Assembly (NCBI GenBank): GCA_030433275.1
Contig: JAUILK010000007.1
Coordinates: forward strand, 1-64,000
DNA length: 64,000 nt
DNA from: Gammaproteobacteria bacterium
GTDB taxonomy: Bacteria > Pseudomonadota > Gammaproteobacteria > Nitrococcales > Nitrococcaceae
Reading direction: 5' to 3'
Shown here: positions 8,700 through 37,490 of the stretch, piece after piece
Numbering within the stretch: position 1 is the stretch's first letter
How the letters are laid out: every line of letters begins with the position of its first letter
Made by a program: the position numbers and the translations under genes
Notes under the pieces: model-generated
The model's input: only the letters and a program-made list of their open reading frames with translations
Database searches by the model: none
Told to the model about the DNA's origin: nothing

Positions 8700-9913
8700 A
8701 GTTCCATCCCTTCCAGGGCGGCCACAGTATTGATATCTTTATCCCCCCGGCCTGATAGATTCGCCACGATAATTTGATCCGGCGTCATCTCTCGGGCTAA
8801 GCGATCAGCACAGGCCAAAGCATGCGCACTCTCCAAAGCCGGCATGATCCCCTCGGCCCGAGTCAACGCATGGAACGCTGCAAGCGCCTCCTGGTCGGTG
8901 GCATCGACGTATTCGGCCCGGCCGACGTCTTTGAGCCAAGCATGCTCAGGCCCCACCCCGGGGTAGTCCAAACCGGCCGAAATCGAATGCGTGGGCAGGA
9001 TTTGTCCGTCGGCGTCTTCCATTAGATAAGTTCTGTTGCCATGCAACACGCCTGGGCGGCCGGTCGCAAGCGGCGCCGCGTGCCGACCACCAGCCAACCC
9101 CTCGCCACCAGCCTCCACGCCATAGAGCCGGACCCCGGCGTCAGCGAGGAAAGGGTGAAACAGCCCCATGGCGTTGGAACCGCCGCCGACGCAGGCCACC
9201 AACGCATCCGGCAGACGACCTTCACGCTCAAGGATCTGCCGACGAGCCTCGTGCCCGATTACCGTCTGAAAATCCCGCACCATTGCTGGATAAGGATGCG
9301 GCCCCGCCACTGTGCCGATAATGTAAAAAGTATCGTCGACATTGGCGGCCCAATCTCGGAAGGCCTCGTTGAGGGCATCTTTAAGGGTGCGCGTACCGGC
9401 TTCGACGGCGATGACTTTAGCACCGAGCAGTCGCATCCGATAGACGTTCACAGACTGACGCTGTACATCCGCCGCGCCCATGTAGATCACGCATTCCAGA
9501 CCCAAGCGGGCTGCCACCGTAGCCGTTGCCACACCGTGCTGGCCGGCCCCGGTCTCCGCGACAAGGCGCGTTTTGCCCATTCGCGCCGCAAGCAATGCCT
9601 GCCCCATAGTGTTATTGATCTTGTGGGCACCAGTATGGTTGAGATCCTCACGTTTGAGATAGATCCGGGCCCCACCCAGTTGCTCCGACCAGCGCTGAGC
9701 ATAGTAAAGCGGGCTGGGTCGGCCCACGTAATGGACCAAATCGGCTTCAAGCTCCGCCAAAAACCGCGGATCCTCGCGGTAGCGGGCATAAGCTTCCGCC
9801 AGCTCTTCGAGCGGCGCCATCAGCAACTCCGGCACGAACCGACCGCCATAACGGCCAAAATGTCCGCCGGCATCCGGAAATTCGCCATAATTGATCGACA
9901 CCTTACTCGACAT
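8696..9913 (-). CDS. trpB: Tryptophan synthase beta subunit
   Basis: PLP enzyme condensing indole with serine to tryptophan. The start was set at [16 protein letters not shown] because the AAGG before it acts as a Shine-Dalgarno; an upstream ATG (9934) would add seven residues. PLP lysine K98 in HTGAHKINN and the phosphate-binding [10 protein letters not shown] motif are present. Length 405 residues. It overlaps the end of trpF by 11 nt. This is the classic TrpB1 form that pairs with TrpA. Confidence 0.96.
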
Positions 9914-10544
9914 AGCCACCTTGGACACGAGCAACCTCTTTGACGAATGCGCTCATGAGCGCGGGATCCTTGACACCAGGTCTCATCTCTACTCCACTAC
10001 TGACATCCACGCCCCACGGGCGCGTTGCCGTAATTGCCGCCGCGACATTGCCAACATGCAACCCTCCGGCCAACACGATGGGGCGCCCTAAATCCTGTGA
10101 CACCCGGTGCCAATCGAAAGCCCGGCCGCTGCCGCCGGCTTGCCCGAGCCGGTGGCTGTCCAGCAACAAACCGGTCGCATCCGGATAAGCGCGAACATAA
10201 GCGACTGGGTCGATAGCCGCACCCATGGGCACGGCCTTGATATAAGGGCGGCGGAACTGCACGCAATAGGCATGCTCCTCCGCGCCATGGAATTGCAGTA
10301 CATCCAGCGCCACGCCCGCAAGAACCTCTTCCACCTGGGCCGCTGGCGCATCGAGGAAAAGCCCGACTACCGTTACGAACGGCGGCAGCACCGCGACGAT
10401 TTCGCGGGCGCAGCGTAGCGATACCCGCCGCGGACTGCGCTCGTAGAAAACGAGCCCAACAGCATCAACACCCAGCTGCGCGGCCGCGACAGCGGCATCC
10501 GGGTGGGTCAGCCCGCAGATTTTGATGCGTGTACGCAACCGCAC
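9903..10544 (-). CDS. trpF: Phosphoribosylanthranilate isomerase
   Basis: Amadori rearrangement of phosphoribosylanthranilate in tryptophan synthesis; a small TIM barrel. The reading frame is open upstream to 10754, but that part overlaps truA and does not resemble TrpF. I place the start at the GTG (10544) giving [14 protein letters not shown]; a TTG at 10538 is also possible. Cys10 in KICGLTH and the distal Asp of [10 protein letters not shown] are the acid-base pair. The 213 residues match the family. truA-trpF is the Pseudomonas order, but here trpBA are inserted directly behind. Confidence 0.92.
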
Positions 10545-35942: not shown

Positions 35943-36081
35943 AGCAGTGATCCACGGGCTGATCCTCGGCGTGGCGGTCAGTGAGCTCTTCTCAACGTCA
36001 TGGCAAACAGCACCGGTGATCATCGGCAATACGCACGCACAGGGATACACCTAACCGAGGCCGGATATCAAGGAGGGAACT

Positions 36082-36498
36082 ATGCTGGAGCTCCAACGTC
36101 GCTTCCGCTGGCTTTGCAGCCTCATCGCGATCGTTTTCGCGCTTACGGCAATACCCGTTCCAGCGGCTCAAGCCAAGCTGGTCAGCACCCAAACATTAGC
36201 CGCCGGCGCGGCTGCCGACAATGCTCGGGCAAGAATCGAAGCTATGTTGGAGCGCGCCGAGGTGCAAGCGCAACTCGTTGCGCTGGGCGTCGACCCACAG
36301 GCCGCGCACGATCGCGTGGCCGCCTTGTCCGACGCACAGGCCAAAACACTGGCAAAGCACATCGACAATACGCCAGCAGGCGGTAGCACCCTTACTTTTC
36401 TCGTTGGAATCGGGCTCGTTGTCTTCCTTGTGCTGCTGGTGACGGACATTCTCGGGTTCACGGACGTATTTCCATTCGTGAAAAAAACCGTGCATTGA
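36082..36498 (+). CDS. PA2779-family small membrane protein
   Basis: Function unknown. A signal-peptide-like N-terminal helix (about 10-31, ending PAAQAK), a helical periplasmic stretch with LGVDPQAAHDRVAALSD, and a C-terminal transmembrane helix (about 103-125) followed by a short tail. It has a near-perfect AAGGAGG ribosome site. The stop overlaps the next gene's ATG by one base (TGATG), so the two are translationally coupled. The pairing of a PA2779-like with a PA2778-like gene recurs in proteobacteria, and suggests one functional unit at the envelope. Confidence 0.75.
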   Translation: MLELQRRFRWLCSLIAIVFALTAIPVPAAQAKLVSTQTLAAGAAADNARARIEAMLERAEVQAQLVALGVDPQAAHDRVAALSDAQAKTLAKHIDNTPAGGSTLTFLVGIGLVVFLVLLVTDILGFTDVFPFVKKTVH

Positions 36499-37490
36499 TG
36501 AGGGATTTTGGCCGAACGACAGCGGCCTTGCCACGGCCATTATCCGTTTTATGCGCGGGATTGCTCACGCTGGTCGGATGTGCCTCGCAGAACGGTCTGC
36601 AACCGCCGGCCCTCGTGCGCACCATGCCGCCCGTCGAACTGTTCGATGTGCCGTTCTACCCCCAAACTGCTTATCATTGCGGCCCGGCCACGCTGGCCAT
36701 GGTGCTGGGGTGGAGCGGGGTGAACGCCGACCCCCAGCACCTCAGTACCGAACTCTACATTCCGGCCAAACAAGGCACACTACAGGCCGAACTCCTGGCC
36801 CGCGCGCGTAGCAACCACCGTCTCGCTTATGTCATTCCACCGCAACTATCCGAACTACTGCGCGAGTTGGAGGCCGGACACCCGGTGCTGGTATTGCAAA
36901 ACCTGGGGCCCGACTGGTATCCAATCTGGCACTATGCGGTGGTGGTCGGAGTTCAACCGGCAAACGGCAATCTGGTGCTACGCTCGGGCGATGAGCGCCG
37001 GCACGTGGTGGCGATCGGGACCTTCGAGAGAACCTGGGCGCGCGGGAAGCGTTGGGGAATCGTCGTGCTACCGCCTGGAGAGTTGCCGACAACAGCGACC
37101 GCCGCACGATTGTTCCAATTACTGGCGGAGTTGGAAACACAGCATGAGCCAATGACGACCTTACCAAGCTGGCAGGCCGGCGTAAAACGGTTTCCGAAAG
37201 ACGGCCGCCTCGCTCTGGGACTGGCCAATGCGCTATACAAAACTGAACGCTTGGGGAGTGCAGCCGCAGCGCTCGAAGCGGCGCTCGAGCGCCAAACCGA
37301 CCAGAGCGCAGTGCTTTATAACAATCTGGCACAGATCGAAGCCGATCAAGGTAATTGGGCGGAGGCCCAAGCAGCAGCCGCCGAAGCTGTGCGTCTGGGT
37401 GGCCCATTTTTATCCACCTTCCAGGTGACTCTGCGAACAATCCAGTGCCGCCGCTCTGGCAAGCCTACGGATTGTGGGCCAGCTTTATAG
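36498..37490 (+). CDS. PA2778-family lipoprotein, C39-like cysteine peptidase with TPR
   Basis: Predicted lipoprotein: lipobox LTLVGC with C28. A C39-like papain-fold domain follows, with catalytic C61 in YHCGPATLAMVL, H145 in WHYAVVVG and a likely Asp at 165. The C-terminal part (about 215-300) looks like TPR repeats. Residues for proteolysis appear intact, but substrate is unknown; C39 domains usually cleave leader peptides at double-glycine sites. A TTG three bases upstream is an alternative start. Coupled to the PA2779-like gene. Length 330 residues. Confidence 0.78.
   Translation: MRDFGRTTAALPRPLSVLCAGLLTLVGCASQNGLQPPALVRTMPPVELFDVPFYPQTAYHCGPATLAMVLGWSGVNADPQHLSTELYIPAKQGTLQAELLARARSNHRLAYVIPPQLSELLRELEAGHPVLVLQNLGPDWYPIWHYAVVVGVQPANGNLVLRSGDERRHVVAIGTFERTWARGKRWGIVVLPPGELPTTATAARLFQLLAELETQHEPMTTLPSWQAGVKRFPKDGRLALGLANALYKTERLGSAAAALEAALERQTDQSAVLYNNLAQIEADQGNWAEAQAAAAEAVRLGGPFLSTFQVTLRTIQCRRSGKPTDCGPAL

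Follow-up and report, generated by a model that had tools for sequence, protein, structure and literature searches.

The PA2779/PA2778 gene pair of a gammaproteobacterium: a C39-like lipoprotein peptidase and its putative membrane-anchored substrate

The DNA analysed here, a stretch of 64,000 nucleotides from contig JAUILK010000007.1 of a gammaproteobacterium of the Nitrococcaceae (hereafter the window; contig C24 in our numbering, the whole genome measuring 3.4 Mb), carries two adjacent genes, one for a small membrane protein of the PA2779 family (P0001) and one for a cysteine peptidase of the PA2778 family (P0002). With moderate confidence, drawn from sequence patterns, we consider PA2779 to be the dedicated membrane-anchored substrate of PA2778, which would cut it at a juxtamembrane motif outside the inner membrane. 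The partnership of the two proteins is itself very well supported. Both families are already catalogued, so the novelty concerns the mechanism rather than the genes; a search of the open-access literature found no functional study of PA2779 or PA2778. In three published papers the two occur as gene names: PA2779 figures as the divergent neighbour of PA2780 across a 407-bp gap in work on BswR (PMC3985676), a start-codon change in PA2778 is recorded for Pseudomonas aeruginosa clone CHA (PMC3697988), and a promoter of the PA2779 family from P. stutzeri was among the strong constitutive ones screened, on par with the reference Pgenta (PMC10155442).

Gene coupling and joint occurrence of the two families

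P0001 scores 135.6 bits against NF033919 (PA2779_fam, cut-off 40) and 92.5 bits against PF20332 (DUF6627, cut-off 27), and P0002 reaches 303.4 bits against NF033920 (C39_PA2778_fam, curated cut-off 150), which makes them members of their families. The pair is not due to chance, since both families stand far above the curated cut-offs and occur jointly across many genera. The two open reading frames (ORFs; Table 1) have one base in common, belonging both to the stop TGA of the PA2779 gene (36496-36498) and to the start ATG of the PA2778 gene (36498-36500). The Shine-Dalgarno sequence AAGGAGGG is followed after a gap of 4 bases by the first ATG, and no ribosome site is visible upstream of the PA2778 gene on reading the sequence; together with the TGATG overlap, this points to coupled translation from one message. 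An earlier sequence-only reading of this DNA had given the ORF coordinates, the one-base overlap and a strong ribosome site of the first gene, all of which were found as described.

Among 299 genomes of the phylum, counted over the cut-offs, both families occur in 35, PA2778 alone in one (G214), PA2779 alone in none and neither in 263; sub-threshold PA2778 matches, present in most of the 299 genomes, are largely tetratricopeptide repeat (TPR) proteins. The E. coli genome used as a control gives no PA2779 match, and none for PA2778 above its cut-off. Every PA2779 match over the cut-off (37/37) lies just upstream of a PA2778 gene on the same strand, at 108-206 bases from profile to profile, and G108 and G112 hold two complete pairs each. 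The pair is thus a conserved unit, in support of the sequence-only reading, and its genes are not usually unlinked. Searching from the peptidase side gave 80 loci in named genomes, with PA2779 adjacent in 74, a contig edge in 2 and the partner unlinked in 4; all six genomes of the edge and unlinked loci encode PA2779, and copy numbers match in 6/6 (2+2, 3+3 and four times 1+1). The two families are both present (22) or both absent (18, of which 14 belong to one genus, g182) in 40 relatives of the window's genome, so that presence agrees in 40/40, and copy number is equal in 38/40, that is in 20 of the 22 that possess the families. The copy counts for the six genomes and the 40 relatives used E-values of 1e-3 for PA2779 and 1e-30 for PA2778; G299 and G327 are apparently a single genome, given their identical contig positions, and the samples of 299 and of 40 share G000 and G228. 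The second PA2779 gene and the second PA2778 gene of the single-contig genome G329 lie about 1.26 Mb apart. Because both are retained even when unlinked, the distribution argues that the proteins, not merely the locus, depend on each other. The distance matrices of 72 pairs are correlated as well (mirror-tree r 0.64, reached by 0 of 2000 permutations), which is not used as proof, since shared ancestry alone could produce it.

In the flanks of the 80 loci, many of them short, only the pair forms a stable cluster among ORFs of at least 80 amino acids (aa), and no conserved third gene was found. Other flank clusters stand at scattered offsets or in few loci, i.e., GGDEF (16 loci), ABC (ATP-binding cassette) ATPase (12) and lipoamide dehydrogenase-like proteins (6), and a 13-locus cluster antisense to the peptidase gene was regarded as artefactual. 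The pair is also found in records titled Desulfobacteraceae, Desulfobacterales or Deltaproteobacteria. At locus L089 (8400-9908 and 9905-10909, plus strand) an unlinked PA2778 gene overlaps the end of the gene for a 502-aa TolC-like exported protein and lies near zinc-transport-like genes, as named by reading the sequences.

The peptidase, its active site and its membrane partner

P0002 matches PF13529 with 39.8 bits (cut-off 24), while PF03412, the C39 family of ABC transporters, stays at 17.7 bits, below its cut-off of 22. The cytosolic C39 type fused to an ABC transporter is not matched; PA2778 is a stand-alone protein of 330 aa with a lipobox and a TPR domain. The lipobox LVGC at residues 25-28, placed correctly by the sequence-only reading, recurs as a pattern in 75/79 PA2778 homologues, and Asp at +2 in none of those 75. 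The TPRs of the same reading are borne out by a TPR-like helical domain at about residues 199-330 of the AlphaFold model (mean predicted local distance difference test score, pLDDT, 92.1), but not by sequence, where all single TPR models stay under their cut-offs (best TPR_16, 30.9 versus 32.7). As modelled, the peptidase domain has a papain-like C39 fold, with 3erv as the closest solved structure (Z 18.9, root-mean-square deviation 2.1 over 151 residues of the predicted model), followed by 6mpz, solved with leader (Z 17.4), 3k8u (Z 17.1) and 8vp5 (Z 16.6). The C39-like protein 3erv of Bacillus anthracis is of the PF13529 type and 24% identical to PA2778, its chain of 200 residues leaves no room for a TPR domain, and we know of no PA2779 partner for it. 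A Protein Data Bank search with the whole alignment A1 was dominated by TPR proteins, and the peptidase domain alone gave weak matches only.

The conservation counts come from alignments A1 (29 PA2778 homologues) and A2 (PA2779), from a second set of 79 PA2778 homologues, and from 105 PA2779 homologues, of which 30 are from A2 and 75 from the 80 loci in named genomes. A script chose the start codons in A1 and A2, and several A1 rows start past the lipobox; L030 and L046, the window's own pair, were replaced by P0002 and P0001, L016 with its in-frame stop was left out of A1, L062, which has no peptidase ORF with a listed start, is absent from the set of 79, and L214 and L215 duplicate L031 and L029.

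Gln56, Cys61, Trp144 and His145 are invariant in the 29 homologues of A1. A C39 peptidase requires a catalytic Cys and His and a preceding Gln, and all three are present in the window's PA2778, Cys61 and His145 at the codons to which the sequence-only reading had assigned them. The count of 79/79 for His145 in the second set is biased, as this set was found with a search pattern containing WH. The C39 triad of PCAT/AMS transporters includes an Asp. Its column, as assigned by a single hhalign alignment, holds Ser in 23 and Thr in 6 of the 29 sequences of A1 and Ser in 79/79 of the second set; as aligned, this is a departure from the textbook C39 triad.

Gln56, Cys61 and His145 are intact in 36 of the 37 paired copies of the phylum sample (29 in A1 and L207-L213), and the remaining copy, L016, carries the in-frame stop. 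The catalytic residues are therefore conserved where PA2779 is present, which removes the concern that they might vary across the family. Six genomes of family f7 without PA2779 hold a TPR-less PA2778 relative, and the catalytic Cys and His are lost in 6/6, with Cys replaced by Ser (5) or Gly (1) and His by Arg (5) or Gln (1). These lipoprotein-like relatives are apparent pseudo-enzymes preserved as intact ORFs. In G214, the sole genome with PA2778 only over the cut-off, the match is a short relative that lacks both Cys and His; five of the 299 genomes hold an inactive relative below the cut-off and one further genome, G101, a rearranged one. To judge from these sequences, active-site loss goes with partner loss. 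A locus of three genes, L152 (4116-7765, plus strand), encodes a 296-aa protein weakly similar to DUF6627 (16.4 bits, below the cut-off of 27), a lipoprotein-like protein with the TPR before the C39 domain, i.e., in reversed order, and a caspase-domain protein.

PA2779 is predicted to be an exported protein with a C-terminal transmembrane anchor. The latter, proposed by the sequence-only reading, agrees with a helix at residues 104-123 of the AlphaFold model (mean pLDDT 70.4), the transmembrane nature of which is read from its hydrophobicity. Foldseek with this model of moderate confidence returned nothing at an E-value of 0.001 or better. In the helical domain R78 is kept in 105/105, G69 in 104/105 and E86 in 103/105 homologues, the window's protein having Gln86. 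A look for a conserved cleavage motif in PA2779 homologues, suggested by the sequence-only reading, gave P-A-G-[G/A/S] just before the transmembrane helix. The residue after Gly100 is G in 71, A in 22, E in 9 and S in 3 of the 105 (G/A/S 96/105), strict GG after P-[A/S] is found in just 66/105, and L97 in 72/105; GS is also used as a C39 cleavage site. Counted on letters only, mean top-residue frequency is highest in the motif (0.90) and the tail (0.74; columns 122-133, consensus TDILGxTDVFPF), ahead of residues 82-97 (0.54), the membrane helix (0.50) and residues 32-81 (0.47). The motif stands 14-20 residues from the tail's TD in 92/99 measured sequences (6/105 were not measurable, and the other 7/99 gave 0-4, likely false TD matches as tail-less homologues exist); with such variable spacing, the motif is more than a piece of the membrane helix.

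Some homologues lack the tail: no residue is present at column 122 in 7/105 and at column 132 in 20/105, and P-A-[G/A] is kept in 7/7 tail-less ones. Nine relatives have a shorter PA2779 beside PA2778, in which P-x-G-[G/A/S] is followed by nothing but a hydrophobic stretch and a terminal Arg (9/9), e.g., ...LPAGGSTVALLLVIIILLLLLR, and of seven further tail-less homologues four terminate in Arg or Lys. Because the tail is missing in some homologues, the shared core of PA2779 is, as these sequences have it, the helical domain with the motif. The idea that the tail or membrane piece is an at least equal main product was dropped, as the tail is absent in some homologues, also beside intact PA2778. 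Two PA2779 types coexist in the relatives G327, G329, G332, G335, G340 and G342. The longer type, with a profile match to about 122 of 123, is not beside PA2778, and the shorter, tail-less type, ending with motif, helix and Arg, adjoins it (in G335 at 630 bases). Locus L067 has tandem PA2779 genes (9042-9488 and 9536-9946, plus strand) upstream of a single PA2778 gene.

Table 1. Positions of the features of the PA2779/PA2778 pair in the window and of the TPR-less PA2778 relatives in their own loci
Feature	Position	Strand	Basis
Shine-Dalgarno sequence AAGGAGGG of the first gene	36070..36077	+	sequence read directly
PA2779-family protein (DUF6627), 138 aa	36082..36498	+	NF033919 135.6 bits; PF20332 92.5 bits
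Predicted Sec signal peptide, residues 1-31, AxA site Ala29/Ala31	36082..36174	+	A29 85/105, A31 101/105; predicted cleavage
Helical domain, residues 32-97, with Gly69, Arg78 and the E86 column	36175..36372	+	AlphaFold helices
Candidate cleavage motif Pro98-Ala99-Gly100-Gly101	36373..36384	+	P 105/105, A 100/105, G 101/105
Predicted transmembrane helix, residues 104-123	36391..36450	+	AlphaFold helix; hydrophobic sequence
Tail LGFTDVFPFVKKTVH, residues 124-138	36451..36495	+	conserved where present; absent in some homologues
TGATG stop/start overlap	36496..36500	+	sequence
PA2778-family cysteine peptidase, lipoprotein with TPR domain, 330 aa	36498..37490	+	NF033920 303.4 bits; model pLDDT 92.1
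Lipobox Leu25-Val-Gly-Cys28 (LVGC), Ala at +2	36570..36581	+	sequence
C39-like peptidase domain, about residues 45-195	36630..37082	+	structure matches; PF13529 39.8 bits
Gln56 codon (oxyanion-hole Gln by analogy)	36663..36665	+	29/29 and 79/79 homologues
Cys61 codon (nucleophile by analogy)	36678..36680	+	29/29 and 79/79 homologues
His145 codon	36930..36932	+	29/29 homologues of A1
Ser163 codon, column of the C39 Asp	36984..36986	+	column match by hhalign with FapD-like proteins
TPR domain, residues 199-330	37092..37487	+	AlphaFold helices, structure comparison
TPR-less relative, L146	5428-6090	-	
TPR-less relative, L147	5277-5939	-	
TPR-less relative, L148	5558-6445	-	
TPR-less relative, L149	5026-5754	+	
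TPR-less relative, L150	4972-5634	+	
TPR-less relative, L151	5374-6066	-	

Proposed cleavage of PA2779 and rival readings

We propose the following course of events. Both proteins would be made from one message by coupled translation and exported by Sec, after which PA2779 would shed its signal peptide, its C-terminal helix anchoring it in the inner membrane and its helical domain reaching into the periplasm. PA2778 would be lipidated at Cys28 and likewise face the periplasm, as its sequence signals suggest. The C39-like domain would then take the PA2779 helix, which in the model stops at residue 95 and which would probably dock on the TPR domain, and cut after P-A-G or P-A-G-[G/A/S] just outside the membrane, so that the helical domain would be released from its anchor. 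The freed helical domain is the likelier product than the tail, judging by the homologues, because domain and motif are common to all of them and the tail is missing in some; where present, the conserved tail may serve an additional function. The rule for C39 enzymes is a cut behind G(-2)-G(-1), the leucines at -7 and -12 of the leader making a hydrophobic contact (PMC6959990), and GA is also used as a cleavage site (PMC5557850). The PA2779 motif matches this rule. Hydrophobic residues stand at -15, -12, -8 and -5, with Pro at -4, and since this pattern is non-classical, recognition by PA2778 would be related to, yet distinct from, that of classical C39 leaders. PA2778 probably has one dedicated substrate, since no second protein with motif, helix and tail was found in the window's genome by a search that tail-less targets would escape.

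Several observations weigh against cleavage of PA2779 by PA2778. By the alignment, Ser or Thr stands where the triad has its Asp, and in three relatives belonging to a single genus (L228, L230 and L231) Asp takes the place of Gln56, five residues before the catalytic Cys, with Cys and His retained. One extra PA2779 is present in G333 (3 versus 2) and in G342 (2 versus 1), one of these copies in G333 having an in-frame stop. Glu follows Gly100 in 9/105 homologues, Ala replaces Gly100 in 4/105, and single homologues have PAGQ or NAGA, all of them unexpected under a strict C39 rule. The spacing of hydrophobic residues is not that of the L(-12)xxxE(-8)L(-7)xxxxGG leader, the L-[ST]-x-x-E-[VL] stretch of PA2779 may be just a helix-capping box, and the conserved PAG could be a hinge. 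There is also a problem of distance. By the rule established for E. coli, a lipoprotein without Asp at +2 goes to the outer membrane, so PA2778 would reach a place far from the inner-membrane site; cutting before PA2778 leaves the inner membrane might meet this problem.

The sequence-only reading left PA2779 as substrate or adaptor, which is the right pair of options. The main rival is therefore an adaptor or activator, the periplasmic helices of which would bind the TPR or C39 domain, hold PA2778 at the inner membrane and switch it on, with PA2778 cutting some other protein and the PAG motif acting as a hinge or docking point; we consider this possible though unlikely. Co-occurrence cannot separate it from the substrate, since matched copy numbers of unlinked genes fit a two-subunit enzyme equally with an enzyme and its substrate. 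In addition, R78 and G69 of the helical domain are conserved like the motif, and membrane anchoring would ease the distance problem. Against an adaptor, the motif has the residues that C39 enzymes cut after, varies in its distance to the tail and persists in tail-less homologues, and the flanks of the 80 loci show no third family as its target, although a substrate could be encoded elsewhere. The tail-less homologues took weight from the adaptor and gave it to a sortase-like transfer, in which a Cys61 thioester formed on L-P-A-G would be resolved by the amine of another molecule instead of water, and the helical domain would be moved from its membrane anchor to another target, leaving the anchor behind. 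This appears rather improbable to us. The layout of PA2779 (signal peptide, L-P-A-G-[G/A], hydrophobic helix) is in its favour, and so are the short homologues, which end after the helix with Arg in 9/9 relatives and with Arg or Lys in 4/7 others. The sortase/LPXTG and rhombosortase/GlyGly-CTERM systems have a small-residue motif before a C-terminal helix and basic residues, to which tail-less PA2779 is much alike; sortase and rhombosortase enzymes have other folds than C39. Unlike sortase signals, most PA2779 proteins, the window's included, have a conserved tail after the helix (column 122 in 98/105). An NCBIfam scan of P0001 up to an E-value of 1 gave PA2779_fam, one weak unrelated match and no sorting-signal family (the scan did not cover tail-less homologues), and the single motif-helix-tail protein of the genome leaves no second target for such transfer apart from tail-less ones, which would be missed.

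A classical double-glycine system, with PA2779 as a bacteriocin- or microcin-like precursor or with PA2778 maturing the precursors of C39 ABC transporters, is very improbable, even though the genome has two long C39 proteins (1034 and 772 aa) that are taken by size as ABC transporters. Double-glycine substrates, which the sequence-only reading had proposed to look for, did not turn up in the genome, where the TIGR01847 leader search gave one sub-threshold match (14.1 bits versus 15.7) on contig C26, away from the locus; strict GG in 66/105 homologues and Ser/Thr in the Asp column do not suit such a system either. PA2779 has a Sec-type signal, and no transporter gene lies beside the pair within the window. 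The C39 domains of PCAT/AMS transporters (ComA 3k8u, LahT 6mpz, PCAT1 8vp5) have the same fold with Cys and His, and their substrates, which carry G at -2 followed by either G or A, are similar in motif to PA2779. They are cytosolic, fused to an ABC transporter and cut N-terminal leaders (PMC6959990), whereas PA2778 is an exported lipoprotein whose candidate site is C-terminal, before a membrane anchor. The remark of the sequence-only reading that a stand-alone C39 protein is unusual is fair, but such proteins are already described, i.e., single-domain C39_2 peptidases (PMC10318531) and FapD of the Pseudomonas fap operon, an exported stand-alone C39 peptidase whose active Cys is required for amyloid secretion (PMC5557850). 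The target of FapD was unclear in 2017, with GG/GA motifs suspected (PMC5557850). FapD is an analogue of PA2778 and the nearest studied system, both being stand-alone exported C39-like cysteine peptidases, and hhalign joins their C39 domains with probability 94. That PA2778 acts like FapD on amyloid components is nevertheless scarcely credible. Unlike PA2778, FapD-like proteins (named from sequence, that of L194 also from its neighbours) keep the Asp (DPA or DPV), have 251-272 aa and match PF03412 instead of PF13529. The PA2778 model, run with filters off, gives only 2.9-11.7 bits to 16 such sequences, an overlapping set of 13 domains and 3 whole proteins, as against more than 230 bits for paired members, and a default search with it found no match to the FapD-like proteins of L190 and L194 at an E-value of 10. 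No Fap-like genes flank the pair within the window, and the FapD-like protein of the genome is elsewhere (L190, contig C46). The TPR-less hits of 136-156 bits (G232, G198, G256, G127, G290 and G214) were considered as FapD, which their neighbourhoods and sequences rule out, and a C39 peptidase in PMC12005307 was set aside as a Staphylococcus gene.

Related loci and meaning of the pair

Two loci elsewhere in the window's genome bear on C39 proteins of other kinds. At L190 (973-4808, minus strand, contig C46) the FapD-like stand-alone C39 protein is encoded with a 541-aa Asn/Gly-rich repeat protein and two exported-looking proteins, suggesting, by reading, a second, amyloid-like system. L191 (152-9412, plus strand, contig C88) has an ORF of 1034 aa with a C39 domain (PF03412, 146 bits) in a same-strand gene run that includes FHA-domain-like and HlyD-like proteins, named by reading their sequences, and is possibly a peptide export system. 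The neighbours of the pair in the window resemble by translation what we take to be QueD, FolE2 and TypA.

About 12% of the genomes sampled from the phylum (35/299) contain the pair, which is kept or lost jointly. If PA2778 cuts PA2779 at the motif, the two would form a dedicated periplasmic enzyme-substrate pair and give the C39 family a role other than removing leaders in ABC transporters. The pair also offers a tractable comparison for FapD. If sortase-like transfer were true instead, this would be a Gram-negative sortase-like system built on an enzyme with the C39 fold, in which the tail-less homologues, with their motif, hydrophobic helix and Arg, look like a stripped-down signal, and it would define a C39 branch outside the cell membrane with a C-terminal juxtamembrane site and with Ser/Thr in place of the triad Asp.

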